DNA of 64,000 nt from Pedobacter jeongneungensis. GTDB lineage: Bacteria; Bacteroidota; Bacteroidia; Sphingobacteriales; Sphingobacteriaceae. The notes below the pieces were generated by a model. The model was not told where the DNA came from. It searched no databases and was given only the letters and a program-made list of their open reading frames with translations. Both the position numbers and the translations under genes were made by a program. The stretch is from NCBI RefSeq assembly GCF_000633455.1, contig NZ_AYMG01000026.1, forward strand, positions 1 through 64,000. The letters are read 5' to 3'. Within the stretch, counting starts at the first letter, position 1, and every line of letters starts with the position of its first letter. This document shows, one piece after another, positions 56,959 through 64,000 of this stretch.

Positions 56959-57672
56959 ATGATTGTTAACTATTGTAACAGCGGATGGGAAATTATAACC
57001 CAACGGGCTCACGGGCTCCTGGCCGGGCAGATATGTGCAAGATGGAAAATTTCTGACCAGCCCAGCCGATGGGTGGAAACTCTTATTGCAACCACCGAGC
57101 ATGATGATGTTTTTAATGAATTCAGCCGTGGTCCGCTGTTGTGTGGTAATGGTGGTCCTTTGGATTTTAAAATGACCTCATTTGATATCACCGCCTGCAG
57201 GGAGATGATGGACAAGGCCCTAAGTAAGAGCCGTTTTATTGCACTGCTTTTTGCGAGGCATATCTCCTTTACCCATGGAAGTGAAGGTGCGGCAAAGCGT
57301 TATCTCGCAGGACTTAAAAAGCTGGAAGGGCAGTGGATCAAAGAGGCACGGAGCAGCATAGCTGAAGTAGACCGCGCTTACTCCCTGCTTGAATTCTGTG
57401 ATGCCTTTTCGTTGCTCATCTGTCAGGACCAGATTCCCCCCGAGGAACGTCGCCTGGAAATCAGCCAGGGCCCTAGCGGCAATTCTTTCCAGTTTTTTCA
57501 GCAAGGGCAGCGGCTTGTTGTTGAGCCCTGGCCATTTGAGCCTGACAGGTTTGAGGTGGACTATGAGCGGCTGAGCTTAAAGGAAATCAGTTTCGAAAAT
57601 GATAAGGTCTTTAGGAAGGCCCTGCGGAAAGCAGCGGTTGAACACCGGACGGTTATAATCTGCAGGGAATAA
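56959..57672 (+). CDS. DUF3891-family protein
   Basis: 237 residues. It shows the features I associate with DUF3891: WEIITQRAHGLLAGQI at the start, IATTEHDDVFNEF with a His-Asp pair, a helical middle (FIALLFARHISFTHG), EFCDAFSLLICQDQIPP and a beta-rich C-terminal half (VEPWPFEPDRFEV). The His/Asp pattern suggests an HD-like metal site, but this is only a resemblance. No signal peptide. Function unknown. Same strand as the helicase, 85 bp away. Confidence 0.7.
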   Translation: MIVNYCNSGWEIITQRAHGLLAGQICARWKISDQPSRWVETLIATTEHDDVFNEFSRGPLLCGNGGPLDFKMTSFDITACREMMDKALSKSRFIALLFARHISFTHGSEGAAKRYLAGLKKLEGQWIKEARSSIAEVDRAYSLLEFCDAFSLLICQDQIPPEERRLEISQGPSGNSFQFFQQGQRLVVEPWPFEPDRFEVDYERLSLKEISFENDKVFRKALRKAAVEHRTVIICRE

Positions 57673-58080
57673 TCTAGTTATTTTAACCTATTGGTTTTCA
57701 ATTTCTTAAATAATCGTCGAAATTACTGCGCGCCCGATTACTCACCACTATCTTGATGCAGATTAACTTTGTATCTTACAATTCAAAGGTACAATTTGAG
57801 TTAAAACTAACCAAATCAAACTACTAAATTATGAGGTAGTGTGATTTTTGGACTTCTGAAAGAACTAAATGACATCCGTTCGACTGCAATATAGATTTTG
57901 TGGTTGCCCATCCGAAGTAGAATAACAACGGCATAAATTTTTTTCTGTGAAATAAACGGTCGGTTAACTGTACGCCATTGGAAAACAACTGGGAAGATTT
58001 TTTTTCGCATTATTCCGTACATTTTCGTGTTACACTAAATTAAATTATGTTATATTTATAGAAACGAGTAAAGTGTAATT
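57673..58080. other. 408-bp AT-rich gap before the recombinase remnant
   Basis: No supported gene. The base composition becomes clearly more AT-rich than the preceding 10 kb and stays so to about 59.3 kb, a sign that the mobile-element region starts here. No inverted repeat of the resolvase res-site type could be confirmed by eye. Confidence 0.45.
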
Positions 58081-58692
58081 ATGCTAATTGGATATGCAAG
58101 GGTAAGCAAGTTTGAACAAAATTTAGATTTAAAAACTGATGCTTTTAAAAACATTGGAATAGAAAAAAATTTTGTTGACCAGGTTAGCGGTGTAGAATCT
58201 GAAATAGCACACCTTAACGAGCTATTAAGTTTTATAAGAAAGGGAGATACTTTAACAGTATGGAGATTAGACAGGCTTGATGGAACTTAAGTAAAGTTAA
58301 TTGAATTCGTTACGCAACTTATAGAATCAGGAATACACTTTAGATCTCTTACAGAAAATATCGATACTTCTACGGCCATGGGTAAATTGATCTTTCACAT
58401 TTTTTGCGCCTTAGCCGAACATGAAAGAAATGTATTAATAGAAAGGACTAATGCAGGATTGAAGTCTGCCAGAGCTAGGGGCAAAAATGGAGGTAGGCCA
58501 GAGGGTATGACGGATAAGTACAAAGAGATTGCCCCATTGATAAAAGCTTCTTACGAAAGTAAAAATGGATCAGTAGAGAGTATTATGAAAGCTTTTAATT
58601 TTGGGAGTAAAACCACATTTTATAAAATAATCAATTTTGAATTAGGGCAGCAAAGGTTTATGCTTTCTTTGGACTATTTCTTTTTATCTTAG
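58081..58692 (+). pseudogene. Serine recombinase (resolvase/invertase) with internal stop
   Basis: The N-terminal catalytic domain has GYARVS with nucleophile Ser9, then FVDQVSGV and VWRLDRL. At 58288-58290 a TAA stop interrupts the frame just after DRLDGT, where relatives read DRLGRSLKH. The same frame then resumes with VKLIEFVTQLIESGI, HIFCALAEHERNVLIERT, a GGRPEG linker and a helix-turn-helix (VESIMKAFNFGSKTTFYKII). A single point event or local rearrangement at the stop would restore it, but the changed residues beside the stop suggest true decay. The tail after IINFE is foreign and overlaps the frame at 58641. Confidence 0.85.
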
Positions 58693-58817
58693 GGGGGACT
58701 GCTTGGTACTGTAAAATTCAAAAACAGCAAGATCGGTTGCAATCAATCCAACTTGAAATAGCTCAAATCGAATTGTCAAAAATCAAATCTTCAAATCCAG
58801 AACTAGAGGAGTCTTAG
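58641..58817 (+). pseudogene. 5'-truncated small membrane protein with coiled coil
   Basis: A frame different from the recombinase, without ATG, opens right after a stop. It reads AAKVYAFFGLFLFILGG (membrane span) and then WYCKIQKQQDRLQSIQLEIA with heptad-like spacing, ending ELEES. The texture is that of a real anchored coiled-coil protein whose start was lost where the recombinase tail was joined. Family unknown. Confidence 0.4.
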
Positions 58818-58905
58818 ACAATTCGAAGTGCAAACAAGCCTAGCTGTAATCCACCGTGTAGCAATACCGTGAAACATAAATGCAAAATCTCTATGAACGA
58901 TTAAT

Positions 58906-59172
58906 ATGGATGACAAATTAAACAACGAGGAATTAATAACATTAGTAAAGAGGTCTTACGGTGAAAGTGACATTAAATTCGCCGGCCATAGTGATGAAAT
59001 TGTAAATGCACAAAAGGCTTTGATTTTAGCAATGAAACTTGATTTAGAATTAGATCAATATTTGGATTACCATAAAAAATTTCTTTTTTATGGTAAAAAG
59101 GTATCAGCAGAACACATTAATAAACAGATTGAACGGGTTAAAGATCTTTCTTACTATTTTAAATTCGATTGA
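58906..59172 (+). CDS. Small uncharacterised helical protein
   Basis: 88 residues, charged and largely helical (NNEELITLVKRSYGESD, EIVNAQKALILAMKLDLELD, VSAEHINKQIERVKDLSYYF). It has no signal peptide and no recognised domain. It lies between the recombinase remnant and the RHS remnant in AT-rich sequence. It could be an orphan immunity protein or element cargo; nothing proves this. Confidence 0.4.
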   Translation: MDDKLNNEELITLVKRSYGESDIKFAGHSDEIVNAQKALILAMKLDLELDQYLDYHKKFLFYGKKVSAEHINKQIERVKDLSYYFKFD

Positions 59173-59298
59173 TCAGTTTAAATTAGCTAAAAAGAAACAT
59201 TAACCCGGCACCGTTTGCCAACAGCTTTTGATCAGATCCACATGTAACCAGATGAACATTAAAGTCCGGGACAAATAAATTCTTAAAGAACGATCAAA

Positions 59299-59394
59299 AT
59301 GAAGTGCTCAATTATTGTATTTTTCTGTTCATTATTTGCAACAAGTTGCTTTTCTCAAGATCAATGGAAATATATCGGCACAGACCTATACTAA
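59299..59394 (+). pseudogene. Signal-peptide stub fused out of frame to RHS sequence
   Basis: MKCSIIVFFCSLFATSCFSQ is a perfect secretion signal, but its frame runs only 31 codons. From about 59365 the DNA belongs to an RHS gene in another frame. This is the 5' end of a lost secreted-protein gene joined to an RHS 3' fragment. Confidence 0.6.
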
Positions 59395-60817
59395 TGGAGG
59401 TGCACAAAATACTTTCAGCTATAACTATGACAAGCTGAATAGGTTAACACTTTCCAGTGCAGGAAACAATCTTGGTGAAAGTATCAGTTATGATGTAATG
59501 GGAAACATTAAGAGTCTTTCCAGGGATGGTTATGGAGCCAATGACTATCACATTGATCAATATAAAGGGAACCAGCTGAAGAATATCAGTGGTTTTACCA
59601 ATGGTAGTTACGTATATGATGAAAACGGAAATCTGGTGAGCGATGGGCCAGCCGGGACGATCATCGGTTACAATTACCTGAACCTTCCGGTACAGGTAAA
59701 CGGGAACCAGAATATTACCTTTACCTACGATGCTTCTGGTAAAAAACTGACAAAGACTAATGCAGGCGTAGTTACGGCCAATTATCTTGACGGTATTGTC
59801 TATAAACCTAACGGTGTAATTGATTTCATTCAGACCGAGGAAGGGATCGCAAGGAATAGCAACGGTAGTTATAGCTATGAGTATAATCTTGAGGATCGTT
59901 TGGATAATGTGCGTACAAGCTTTCATCGAAATCCTGCATCAGGACTTTTGGAGCCTATCCAGAGAGACGATTATTATGCGTTTGGGCTAAGGAAAGTTGC
60001 GAGTGGAGGAACAAACAAGTATGTTTACGGTGGTAAGGAACTGCAAGAAGAGTTAGGGCAATATGATTATGGTGCAAGATTCTATAACCCTGTCATCGGC
60101 AGATGGAATGTTGTCGATCCGCTAGCAGATATGTCACAAGGAACCTCACCTTATGCGTTTTGCGCAAACAATCCTATTTTGTTTAATGATAAGCTGGGCT
60201 TAGACACTGCGAAAGCTCGAAATCTGGGAACCGTTAACATTACCGCACATAGCATAGCCCGCGGTTATGAAAGGCTTATGATGTGGACGCATGGATTTGG
60301 CAGGATTATAGTTGGCAAAACTTTGGATCACTTCAATGTGGCGAGTAATTCTTCAAACTTTTTTATGTTATTAGCGAATTCTGGAATGCAGAGAGGTAAA
60401 ACAAATTTGACCGGTGGTCTCTTAGAAAAGTTGAAGAAAGATCCAGGGATGGCCAGGTTTAAGAAAAAATTGATAGAAAAAATGAAACTTAATCCTGGTC
60501 TGAAAAAAATTAAATTTTCTGACCTTGTAGAGTTTGGTGGGAAGTGGGAGGATGGCAATAAAATGAATGTAACCACAAACGCTTTGACGTGGACAATTCG
60601 TCATTCGTGGTTAGACGCTGATGCGATAATTAAGCCTGATGGAACTGTTGTAGTTCAATTTAGCACATCCGACACCTTAGATTTGACACCACAGGAATCT
60701 AGGTCGTTTAGCTATAATGTCGCCAGCTTCGTAACTGGCACAGTATACCATGGATTCGCGGGAGGAGGCATGGATATGAAAGTAGAAGCCAATTGGACCG
60801 AAACTATTAAACCATAA
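59315..60817 (+). CDS. RHS-repeat C-terminal cassette with unknown effector domain (5' truncated)
   Basis: A 500-codon frame whose first 16 or so codons are read-through of the neighbouring signal sequence. Genuine RHS/YD sequence starts at NGNISAQTYTNGG, far inside a normal RHS protein of 1500 or more residues. YD repeats (YNYDKLNRL, YVYDENGNLVSDG, FTYDASGKKL) lead to the hyperconserved core at about 235-295 (YDYGARFYNPVIGRWNVVDP, then GTSPYAFCANNPI). After KLGLD the last 205 residues are a variable tip typical of polymorphic toxins, with no domain I recognise. Without a proper start the cassette is probably silent unless recombined into a full RHS gene. A likely immunity gene follows 3 bp later. 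Confidence 0.75.
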   Translation: MYFSVHYLQQVAFLKINGNISAQTYTNGGAQNTFSYNYDKLNRLTLSSAGNNLGESISYDVMGNIKSLSRDGYGANDYHIDQYKGNQLKNISGFTNGSYVYDENGNLVSDGPAGTIIGYNYLNLPVQVNGNQNITFTYDASGKKLTKTNAGVVTANYLDGIVYKPNGVIDFIQTEEGIARNSNGSYSYEYNLEDRLDNVRTSFHRNPASGLLEPIQRDDYYAFGLRKVASGGTNKYVYGGKELQEELGQYDYGARFYNPVIGRWNVVDPLADMSQGTSPYAFCANNPILFNDKLGLDTAKARNLGTVNITAHSIARGYERLMMWTHGFGRIIVGKTLDHFNVASNSSNFFMLLANSGMQRGKTNLTGGLLEKLKKDPGMARFKKKLIEKMKLNPGLKKIKFSDLVEFGGKWEDGNKMNVTTNALTWTIRHSWLDADAIIKPDGTVVVQFSTSDTLDLTPQESRSFSYNVASFVTGTVYHGFAGGGMDMKVEANWTETIKP

Positions 60818-60820
60818 AAA

Positions 60821-61315
60821 ATGAAGCAGTGTATCTTTTTAATAATTACGATTTTGTCGATGGCCGGTTGTGGCAGTAATTCAAAAAATGGGAAACAATC
60901 AGATGAATTTTATACAGACAAAGGAGGCATGGATTGGGGGCGGGTTCCAATTATTAAGCCATATGAAATAGTTTCGCTTAGGGAGGGGAATTGGGGCGCT
61001 AGATCTGTTGATACCTCTGACGTTGCATTAAGTATGCCAGGTGTCAGGTCAGTAAATGTTGTAGATTCTTTTATTTTCATTTCTGGAGAAAAAACGATTT
61101 TGAACGGTCAAGAGGTTGAGGCAGCCTGGTTTGTGATCAATTCTAAGAACCACAATGTGCTGGGCTTTAAAGATCATAAGGACTACCTTAACCATTTATA
61201 TTTCATTGGGATTGACAATGAACCGAAATTACTTGATGTGCGAGAAGTTTCTCAATATTTCCTCAAACATGATACGGTTGATTGGAAAGGCATTTCAATA
61301 TCTTCTAAACAATAA
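60821..61315 (+). CDS. Probable immunity lipoprotein for the RHS tip
   Basis: 164 residues with a lipoprotein signal ending SMAGC (Cys17) and a short charged spacer. The globular part (VRSVNVVDSFIFISGEK, VEAAWFVINSKNHNVLGF, YFIGIDNEPKLLDVREV) is not a family I know. The position 3 bp after an RHS C-terminal toxin cassette, the small size and the unrelatedness to other genes fit an immunity protein. The lipoprotein signal would place it in the envelope, implying that the effector acts in the periplasm. That is inference. Confidence 0.55.
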   Translation: MKQCIFLIITILSMAGCGSNSKNGKQSDEFYTDKGGMDWGRVPIIKPYEIVSLREGNWGARSVDTSDVALSMPGVRSVNVVDSFIFISGEKTILNGQEVEAAWFVINSKNHNVLGFKDHKDYLNHLYFIGIDNEPKLLDVREVSQYFLKHDTVDWKGISISSKQ

Positions 61316-61546
61316 CTTAGATTGACCTATCAACAGATCACCGAAGATTAAGAAATGGAGGGCGATAGTATATTTTTTAAAAATTGACGACCTATAGAAA
61401 TGATGGATTTTGCTTTTTCAGAGAAGTTATTTATTATCTTTAACTTAGCCAATTACAGTCAAATAGTTGCAAAATAATGGTGAGCATATAGTGAGCTGGT
61501 TAGTGTGTTCTAATTTAAAATATTCATTATCAAAGAAATAAATGTT
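61316..61546. other. Gap before the attachment site, nothing recognised
   Basis: AT-rich, no ORF of note. It contains no 5' half of a tRNA, so the tRNA-like bases at 61547-61570 are an isolated 3' end. Confidence 0.5.
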
Positions 61547-61570
61547 CGGTTCGAGTCCCGTCCATTCCCA
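61547..61570 (+). other. tRNA 3'-end-like attachment (att) core
   Basis: CGGTTCGAGTCCCG followed by TCCATTCCCA has the TTCGAGT T-loop and a plausible 3' acceptor strand, but no upstream tRNA body. Such isolated 3' ends are left when an element integrates into a tRNA gene. A tyrosine integrase gene lies 79 bp to the right. The tRNA identity is not certain. Confidence 0.65.
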
Positions 61571-61589
61571 ACTAGAAATTCAAAAATAT

Positions 61590-61619
61590 TAAAAGCCCCA
61601 AAAATATTTGGGGCTTTTA
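61590..61619. terminator. Bidirectional intrinsic terminator
   Basis: AAAAGCCCC and GGGGCTTTT flank AAAAATATTT, giving a perfect stem with A-tract on one side and T-tract on the other. It lies 30 bp beyond the end of the minus-strand integrase and 20 bp beyond the att core, and would insulate both. Confidence 0.85.
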
Positions 61620-61648
61620 ACTTTGCTGTGAAAGTTAAATTACGTGGT

Positions 61649-62865
61649 TTAAATATGACCGAACTGCTGTTTAAGCTTGCTCATATCCCGGCTTACTTTA
61701 ATGTCAAGGACTTTTGCATAGTGCTGAGTAGTTTTTAAGGCAGTATGTCCTAGGATTTTGCTTACCGTCTCAATTGGAACCCCATTAGAAAGTGTTATTG
61801 TAGTTGCAAATGTGTGCCTTGCCAGGTGAAATGTCAAATGTTTAGCGATACCACAAACATCTGCTATTTCTTTTAAGTAAGCGTTCATCTTCTGATTGCT
61901 TAACACTGGTAATGAGAGGCCTTTGTTTTCGCATTCAGGGTTGTCTTTATAGCGGTTCAATATTTCAATGGCGCTTGGTAAAATTGGTATATGCGATGAT
62001 GTATCAGTTTTTTGTCTCTTTGTAAATATCCACTTTTCACCATCTATCCCTATAACGATTTCTGTCCGTTTTAGTTTTTTAACATTAGCATAAGCTAGTC
62101 CTGTAAAGCAACAAAAAATGAAAATATCTCTAACTTGTTGTAACCTTCCTATTGCAAACTCTTTGGCTATAATCTTATCTATTTCCTCTTGGGTTAGGTA
62201 GCTGCGTTCTTTGGCTTTTGCTGTTGATTTATAACCGATAAAGGGAGCGTGTTTTAGCCAGCCATTTGCCATACAGTCGTTGATGATCTTTTAAAGGTGT
62301 TTAATATATTTTGCGGCAGAAAAATCTCTACACTTACAATCTGCCCGTAAATAATGTTCAAAATTGTTAATGAAGGCATAATTCAATTCACTGATCTGAA
62401 TATCATCTTGGGTATACTTTTTTCGAAGGAAATCTGTTAAGTGTTTTTCAGATGTAATGTAGCCTTTTAGTGTATGGCTTCAAAACCATTCCCGATTAAT
62501 TCCTTTATCCTCGAGTTATGTTCCGCAAATAAACCCGTTAAATATCTGCTTTTTTGTGATTTGCCTGTGAACTGTCCTTGCAAACTCGCTGCTGTAACCT
62601 GTAGGCCCGTGTCGAGTAAAGCCTGATGGGCCATTCTCATCTTGCTTTGCAAACTATCCAGATAGCTATTGTGGGTTCTGACATCTTCCTTTGTGCCAAT
62701 TGCACGCCCGGCTGAACTATTCCATTTTCCGGGTTCGCAATCTCGACCTATAGATATTTCTGCCCGTTTACCATCTACGGTAATGCGCATATAAATGGCC
62801 CTTGGGCCTCCTTTGTAGACTTTTTGCTTTCTTAGATAAAAAAGCAGATGGAAATTACCTTTCAT
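61649..62865 (-). pseudogene. Tyrosine integrase broken by a frameshift and a stop
   Basis: Read from 62865, the N-terminal arm-binding domain is present (FHLLFYLRKQKVYKGG, ISIGRDCEPGKWNS). It stops after GNGFEAIH near 62468. One base out of frame the core-binding domain resumes (GYITSEKHLTDFLRKKY, INNFEHYLRAD) up to KYIKHL, where a TAA at 62293-62291 interrupts it. The same frame then gives the catalytic domain (CFTGLAYANV, LTFHLARHTFATT, LGHTALKTTQHYAKV with nucleophile Tyr). This is the Bacteroidota integrative-element type, about 400 residues when whole. Two independent lesions make sequencing error less likely. The element is probably immobile without help. Confidence 0.87.
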
Positions 62866-63471
62866 AATTACTTACTTGGAGTGAAACAAAAGTAAGACAA
62901 CAGCTTTCCAGTATCAAGATGTTTAATGATTTAACATGTTGGTGTTCAAGTGATTGAAGTAAATTCGGTGCGTAGTTTTTTTATTCTAGATACACACCGA
63001 ATTACACACTTTTTATTGCGATTTGATGCATATTTTAGGTTTTTGATATCAGTAAAAAACCCTTCAAATGTTTGATTTTCAGTGTTTTGATATTATTTTA
63101 CATTGATTTTTGTAGCCCGTAGGGAAATAATCCCGGTTTCTCCCTGCGGTTAAGGTGCCTGAGAATAAATGCATGGTTCCAAAACTTTCGCCGCCCGCGT
63201 ATGGTTATCAGCATGATGAAAAAATGGAATCCGTTTGAGTGGCTTGTGGTCTGCCTTATATTCATCATGTTTATTAGCAGGACGTGGGTTGCCTTGCAGC
63301 GCAGTAACAGCTCGACAGCATTACCTCCGCAATATCCTGTCGTTGCCATCTGCCGCTAAGGTTAAAAACTGTTATTGTAAAACAGCGTATTATTTAGTAT
63401 ACCATTTGCGTTAATCTCAGTCGTCTTTACCCAATATTTATTCCACCAAAACAATAATATAACCAATAACA
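62866..63471. other. 606-bp gap holding one possible small membrane protein
   Basis: AT-rich upstream region of the integrase, then a more GC-rich part from about 63110. The only coding candidate is the 52-codon frame at 63201. No repeat or second att copy was seen. Confidence 0.45.
63201..63359 (+). CDS. Possible small membrane protein, 52 residues
   Basis: The frame gives MKKWNPFEWLVVCLIFIMF (from Met6; ATGs also at codons 1 and 5), a clear single membrane span with positive residues before it, then RTWVALQRSNSS and a Pro-containing tail ending VVAICR. A longer frame on the opposite strand overlaps it but looks less protein-like. No family known. It is 112 bp upstream of the acetyltransferase. 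Confidence 0.35.
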   Translation: MVISMMKKWNPFEWLVVCLIFIMFISRTWVALQRSNSSTALPPQYPVVAICR

Positions 63472-63924
63472 ATGATAGTAACAGAAAAACTACCTGCTTA
63501 CGAATATCAGATAAATCAGGATTTAGCCGGCATCGACTGGCAACGGGTGCATGAATTATTCCAGAAAATCAGTTGGAAACACCGTCTGGCAGAAGAAATA
63601 GAAACAGCCTTTGGCATGAGTACTACCACGCTTTTTGTCTATCACGGAGATGTTATAATTGCTTTTGGCAGGGTAGTAGGCGACGGAAGGTATTATGCGA
63701 TGCTGGCCGACGTTGTGGTGGATCCAGCTTACCAAGGCCAGGGTCTGGGAAAATATCTGGTAAGCACATTAAACGCTCAATTGAAGAATTACCATTTTGT
63801 TAACCTGAGTGCTGCTCCTGGTGCCGACCGCTTTTACAAGAACCTTGGTTGGAAGAAGCAGACCACGGCCTTTATATGGCCACAGGGACCTAAGCAGCTC
63901 AGGCAGCATTGTGAAAAAGATTAA
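63472..63924 (+). CDS. GNAT-family N-acetyltransferase
   Basis: 150 residues of the acetyl-CoA-dependent GNAT fold. Motif A is DVVVDPAYQGQGLGKYL (residues about 83-99), with the pyrophosphate-binding Q-x-x-G-x-G reading QGQGLG. It is preceded by IAFGRVVGDG and followed by NLSAAPGADRFYKNLGW. It acylates an amine on an unknown small molecule or protein. No linked partner gene is visible. The remaining 76 bases of the window hold no feature. Confidence 0.87.
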   Translation: MIVTEKLPAYEYQINQDLAGIDWQRVHELFQKISWKHRLAEEIETAFGMSTTTLFVYHGDVIIAFGRVVGDGRYYAMLADVVVDPAYQGQGLGKYLVSTLNAQLKNYHFVNLSAAPGADRFYKNLGWKKQTTAFIWPQGPKQLRQHCEKD

Positions 63925-64000
63925 GGGACAAAATGCCTCATCTCAAAGCCTGAAATAACAGGCATCTACTTAAACCATACCTTTCACTTGTTCCGGTAGT

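Follow-up and report, generated by a model that had tools for sequence, protein, structure and literature searches.

The locus at positions 59299 to 61315 of the window, by which we mean the whole 64,000-nucleotide stretch of Pedobacter jeongneungensis DNA that was analysed, is very probably an orphan cassette of the Rhs-CT/RhsI type, in which a toxin tip cut from a secreted RHS protein is accompanied by an immunity lipoprotein. The overall arrangement is already known, and the tip and its lipoprotein partner belong to a candidate toxin-tip family without a profile in the libraries searched. The RHS core, the pairing of tip and lipoprotein, a copy of the tip on a long RHS frame, further copies in a cassette array and the scar of a tRNA gene behind the pair were all observed by comparison with other sequences. 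The locus is not a chance feature, since it holds an open frame of 484 codons, matches RHS profiles and has relatives in other genomes.

On the plus strand, the locus opens with a signal-peptide-like stub ORF of 31 codons and a stop (59299-59394), which starts with the ATG at 59299, reads MKCSIIVFFCSLFATSCFSQDQWKYIGTDLY and terminates at 59392-59394; here and below, signal peptides and lipoboxes were assigned by eye. The RHS frame differs from that of the stub (the mechanical ORF runs from a TTG, 59315-60817, and encodes 500 residues), and its likeness to the RHS proteins of relatives begins at the residues NGNI. This onset, together with the sequence CAATGGAAATAT, which recurs unchanged in the full-length RHS gene of locus L025, places the join of stub and RHS part at 59362-59373 on the plus strand, in agreement with the earlier note, which had put an out-of-frame junction between a signal-peptide stub and a tip-bearing RHS fragment near 59365. 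The truncated RHS part (59363-60202, plus strand) comprises the last YD repeats and the core and ends with KLGL. It matches PF05593 (E 1.2e-5) and, over residues 204-280, TIGR03696 Rhs_assc_core (E 1.6e-18), and it is 53% identical to the L025 RHS protein over 288 columns, the likeness ending at the KLGL boundary. This boundary reads DKLGL in the window, versus DPxGL in the enterobacterial Rhs proteins described in PMC3150448. The candidate toxin domain follows as a variable tip (60203-60814, plus strand, with its stop codon at 60815-60817) that has relatives and no profile match; the tip had been recognised as variable beforehand, but given 205 residues, and it has 204. Its residues 157-167, DTLDLTPQESR, are encoded at 60671-60703 (plus strand). 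The candidate immunity gene, encoding a lipoprotein of 164 residues (60821-61315, plus strand), lies 3 bp past the tip stop, where the earlier note had placed it. The frames of tip and lipoprotein are both intact, and the pair is followed on the same strand by a terminator-like hairpin of 14-15 pairs (61589-61620).

Several observations concern the DNA upstream of the stub. An ORF of 88 aa at 58906-59172 has no profile match, and a resolvase is split into two ORFs at 58081-58692, with an unsplit relative of 187 aa on contig C37 of the same assembly (DNA stretch 84% identical). Just 5' of the stub, a non-coding stretch of about 105 nt (59189-59294, plus strand) recurs with 74% identity at C32:19568-19676 (L048), there just 5' of a gene for an unrelated small, probably membrane, protein; a 25-nt core of this stretch has two matches in the genome at up to three mismatches. 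No Rfam family was assigned to the stretch, whose window copy has no unusual fold, and the four Rfam matches over 57500-64000 were all below threshold.

Relatives of the tip were counted at E 0.001 in overlapping genome samples, each count including the genome of the window itself. A single protein as query detected them in 2 of 301 family genomes and an alignment as query in 6 of 399; the figures are 5 of 400 for the order, 4 of 345 for the class (two marginal hits among them) and 3 of 395 for the phylum (one marginal hit among them). The marginal hits in G693 (E 8.8e-5), G946 (E 7.2e-4) and G885 (E 9.3e-4) were treated as chance and left out of our counts of relatives, because tblastn at 1e-4 detected neither tip nor lipoprotein in those loci. 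The relatives kept are those of G276 (38% identity), G349, G400, G711 and G1060, with decayed copies in G322 and G299, and a search of named genome contigs with the tip returned one locus, in Pedobacter miscanthi RS10 (L004). These overlapping samples yielded five other full-length or nearly full-length tips, all in Bacteroidota; among the Bacteroidota genomes sampled, the tip family is thus rare and patchily distributed. The nearly full-length copy of G349 has a frame broken near its start, so that its row in alignments A3 and A5 opens with 30 or so residues read in a frame not continuous with its core. Neither the plasmids searched with the tip nor the viral contigs searched with the tip and with the lipoprotein held a relative.

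The surroundings of these relatives link the tip to long RHS frames and to other orphan cassettes. The G400 copy is the C-terminal part of an 800-codon RHS frame that the contig end cuts off; the lipoprotein comes next, and after it another orphan tip, unlike the first. G349 (L025, L011) encodes a full RHS protein of 1787 aa that has a DUF6443 domain and, judged by eye, a signal peptide. Behind its gene lies a long array of orphan cassettes, in which three copies or remnants of the window's tip occur. One cassette of this array is Ntox44 (PF15607, E 4.6e-13), and the other cassettes tested gave no credible toxin profile. Both full-length RHS proteins that were checked carry a DUF6443 domain and a signal peptide (by eye); no mention of DUF6443 was found in the literature searched. 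Elsewhere, an RHS core and tip run into the contig start (G276), the tip is borne by an ORF of 396 aa (G1060) or by an ORF in which no RHS core precedes it (G711), or only a short tip remnant is left (G299).

The pairing of tip and lipoprotein was assessed by tblastn of six tips and eight lipoproteins against 16 fetched regions, the window included, which yielded 11 tip places and 9 lipoprotein places. All nine fetched lipoprotein loci lie directly behind a tip or tip remnant, and each of the six full-length or nearly full-length tips has a lipoprotein of the same family directly behind it; only two of the 11 tip places, both remnants (L011 76-324 and L041), have none. As most of the fetched regions had been picked by their tip match, a search with the lipoprotein alone is the cleaner test: it found four places, spread over 3 of the 145 genomes searched in the genus, and all four are tip or remnant loci. 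On these two results, the idea that the lipoprotein stands beside the tip by accident was rejected. The eight aligned lipoproteins share an invariant Cys17, D28, F30, Y31, P43, K46 and P47, and the most divergent relative is only 22% identical to the lipoprotein of the window; that the pairing is retained at such divergence is the strongest evidence for a specific putative toxin/immunity pair. In G711, two tandem lipoprotein paralogues stand behind one tip (L039, 6221-7603) and a 20-residue tip remnant precedes the second, which is the trace of a cassette duplication. We consider the reading of tip and lipoprotein as a predicted toxin/immunity pair to be well supported by comparison, and so is the earlier proposal of an orphan RHS tip with the lipoprotein as its immunity candidate, given the six tips followed by this lipoprotein family and two relatives of the tip, one at the end of a long RHS frame and one inside a cassette array.

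The assembly from which the window comes (G000) has just one other RHS core, on contig C20, with 28-39% protein identity to the core of the window, according to the alignment used. A route by core recombination therefore has no evident partner in this genome, for which the notion put forward earlier, that the tip could be swapped into a full RHS gene through a shared core, is not supported. A full-length parent with the same core was not found elsewhere in the assembly, which is 99.98% complete in 66 contigs and in which a collapsed copy is possible. With its in-frame start and its export signal gone, and the one signal peptide in the vicinity lying in a different frame, the tip is probably neither exported nor deployed here. 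The open frame of 484 codons could reflect translation from an internal start, or merely a recent truncation. The lipoprotein has a start and an export signal (by eye) of its own and may still serve as immunity.

The region behind the pair points to a mobile origin. A 21-bp segment at 61548-61568 (plus strand) is the 3' end of a tRNA-Asp(gtc) whose remainder is absent, that is, an attachment-site scar. The window is 87% identical in DNA to G322 (probably P. miscanthi) over 60556-61572, and this likeness ends at the tRNA end. Each of the two genomes has three exact copies of the 21 bp, of which two belong to intact tRNA-Asp(gtc) genes and the third is the scar behind the pair. About 250 bp past an intact tRNA-Asp of G322 (C27:32495), a tyrosine recombinase (PF00589) is encoded, and 31.9 kb further along comes the scar, in the same orientation; this stretch is an integrated tRNA-Asp island whose last cargo is a decayed pair, the tip and the lipoprotein being both broken there. 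In the window, a tyrosine recombinase split into two ORFs (61649-62272 and 62467-62865; 61649-62865 overall, minus strand; PF00589 and PF17293) faces the scar from the other side and has the Arm-DNA-bind_5 and Phage_integrase domains in common with the recombinase at the G322 tRNA-Asp. In the window, the cassette probably arrived in the same way, as the terminal cargo of a tRNA-Asp island. We infer this origin, since the intact tRNA-Asp genes lie on another contig, C1, and no left island end was found in this genome.

No library identified the tip. The window's tip had no match in Pfam or NCBIfam (E up to 10) or in PADLOC (E up to 1), and matched PHROGs solely at E 0.088 or worse. Matches to poly-ubiquitin among PDB sequences are sums of sub-threshold repeat matches and were read as spurious, as were those to gp120 and other entries with a five-row profile (E 0.2 or worse); NF047437 matched one of the six tips at E 0.0062, far below the family cut-off. 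None of these five collections gave the tip a credible match, which, for the libraries tested, supports the first impression that it resembles no known toxin domain. The lipoprotein had no profile match in the libraries searched. Two single-sequence fold models of the tip are poor (mean pLDDT 34.4 and 47.8). Foldseek with these models gave nothing at E 0.001, and colicin M is absent among the best 50 matches listed by Foldseek and likewise among the best 50 listed by VIA-align, whose top match, to collar proteins of phages or pyocins (Z 4.2), was read as not meaningful. None of the titles and abstract beginnings listed in the literature searched concerned this tip, and a prior description may exist elsewhere. 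The label of toxin therefore denotes a candidate, drawn from architecture and neighbours, with no toxin profile match.

The nature of the partner, a lipoprotein, argues for a target of the tip in the envelope. Across the six tips, the invariant polar residues are K78, D80, R133, D157, D160, Y171 and N172, with R167 present in five of the six; alignment A5 has no invariant Cys, His, Ser or Glu. Our best single guess at the chemistry, offered tentatively, has the tip attack a cell-wall precursor by Asp-dependent chemistry in the manner of colicin M. In a sharper form, which we also regard as doubtful, the tip would attack lipid II like colicin M, perhaps as a distant relative, and cut the undecaprenol link on the periplasmic side, a location that a lipoprotein partner would suit and a chemistry with which the lack of other invariant catalytic candidates (Cys, His, Ser, Glu) is consistent. 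D157, D160 and R167 are spaced like the D, D and R of the motif DXYDX5HR that ColM toxins require and that also occurs in degenerate forms (PMC5821083), and D157 stands 47 residues from the C-terminus, where D226 of colicin M stands 45. Two other ColM-like effector domains have been published as precedents (PMC11148199; PMC12419801, section 29). However, the exact motif is absent from the tips, in which the Tyr is changed to the Leu/Phe/Ile side, the His to Ser or Gly, and the Arg is missing in L034; in the six-row ColM set A8, D, Y, D and R are invariant and the His is not (Lys in L051 and L053). The profile comparisons are mixed as well. With hhalign, A5 against A7 brought the motifs into register at P 0.0074, but three other row sets gave P 0.024, 0.037 and 0.095; after shuffling of the ColM columns, 1 of 200 trials still attained the score for A5 and 21 of 200 for A3, and the reversed ColM alignment outscored the forward one (22.4 versus 20.7 and 28.5 versus 16.7 for A5 and A3). 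Column permutation produced the D/D/R pattern 56 times in 200,000, for a pattern chosen post hoc. HMMER with filters off gave, on the scale of one sequence, E 0.003-0.064 for the ColM profile on the six tips and 0.0005-0.17 in the reverse direction; of the tip alignments compared for register, three whole and a fourth in part, those of L006 and L011 were in register, but the window's best stretch was not. No ColM-type family was returned by hmmscan of the six tips against Pfam, and PF14859 was found at E up to 10 neither in the six tip genomes nor in 14 control genomes, which thus gave no positive control. Because of these mixed hhalign values and controls, the post hoc nature of the permutation, the missing Tyr and His and the lack of a ColM-type profile match, the tip was not filed under colicin M, and the fold models are too poor to help.

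The same lipoprotein partner and absence of profile matches would also suit an envelope toxin of an unrelated kind, for instance one that forms pores, modifies lipids with an enzyme domain of another fold, or binds the membrane or an outer membrane protein; to this reading we assign slightly less than an even chance. Membrane or lipoprotein immunity accompanies many unrelated tips that act on the envelope (PMC12419801, section 30), and the low-confidence tip model, a helical pair followed by long strands, would be compatible with this; the invariant K78, D80, R133, D157, D160, Y171 and N172, however, resemble an active site more than a pore. Furthermore, the locus could be a decaying fragment in which toxin and immunity both lack a present function. 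Its truncated and out-of-frame 5' end, the split resolvase and integrase next to it, the broken P. miscanthi copy and the short G299 remnant all suit decay, which we nevertheless judge rather unlikely given the intact frames of tip and lipoprotein and the terminator-like hairpin behind them. The preferred reading is that of an orphan cassette with a candidate envelope toxin and its immunity lipoprotein.

This reading is best appreciated against the orphan rhs-CT/rhsI modules of enterobacteria, which, as described in PMC3150448 and PMC3967940, usually lack translation initiation signals and have no export signals; in one Salmonella case, such a module was deployed following recombination with the main gene. 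The window resembles them in its displaced 3' rhs fragment with part of the core, in the absence of an in-frame start and export signal, in the small putative immunity gene directly next to the tip and in the occurrence of the same tip on a long rhs frame of another genome. Indeed, the core-tip boundary, the absence of the N-terminal shell, in-frame start and export signal, and a tip-specific downstream gene are all found here. The window differs from these modules in phylum, tip, lipoprotein partner and the tRNA-Asp scar behind the pair, and no full-length rhs gene of similar core accompanies it in the locus, which would be a usual though not strictly defining trait; the G349 array, on the other hand, matches the enterobacterial modules. 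Many unrelated toxin tips that act on the envelope have membrane or lipoprotein immunity partners (PMC12419801, sections 29 and 30). Among these, the membrane-anchored BamE-like immunity proteins share with the window a fast-diverging membrane or lipoprotein partner beside a toxin tip, whereas the window lipoprotein, compared by sequence profile alone, has no BamE profile match in Pfam. TANFOR polymorphic toxins, as presented in PMC7073777, come from the same phylum and likewise have C-terminal toxin domains and downstream immunity genes, but differ in their shell (TANFOR versus RHS/DUF6443). Colicin M-type toxins are alike in D/D/R spacing and distance to the C-terminus (PF14859 members; PMC5821083) and in membrane-associated immunity, and the DUF3289 T6SS effectors (PMC11148199) and the ColM-fold polymorphic toxin domain of PMC12419801, the latter likened to our tip by description and not by sequence, are likewise carried by toxins deployed by contact or at the surface. 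The window tip differs from colicin M-type toxins in having no Pfam-family match and neither the Tyr nor the His of DXYDX5HR.

Toxicity, immunity, compartment, silence, delivery and island origin are inferred in our best explanation of the locus. In relatives, the full-length RHS shell would carry the tip to a neighbouring cell, whose periplasm or membrane would be the site of its action, and the lipoprotein in the envelope of the producer would block it. In the window genome, the tip would be silent and the lipoprotein, if made, could protect against neighbours firing the same tip. A bolder proposal, which we consider quite improbable as a whole, would be a new family of Bacteroidota RHS tips that destroys lipid II by colicin M-like Asp chemistry in a diverged active site lacking the Tyr and His of the motif, is guarded by a lipoprotein family of its own and spreads via tRNA-Asp islands rather than by core recombination alone.

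Contact-delivered domains that attack lipid II have already been published, namely TelC (PMC5555719) and the colicin M homologue DUF3289 (PMC11148199), and should the colicin M-like reading be true, RHS proteins would join their carriers. The locus adds to the RHS weapons of Bacteroidota a candidate toxin-tip family that has no profile and a conserved lipoprotein partner, in a pair that is small, intact and directly testable. The tRNA-Asp scar behind it suggests that spare tips travel as island cargo too.
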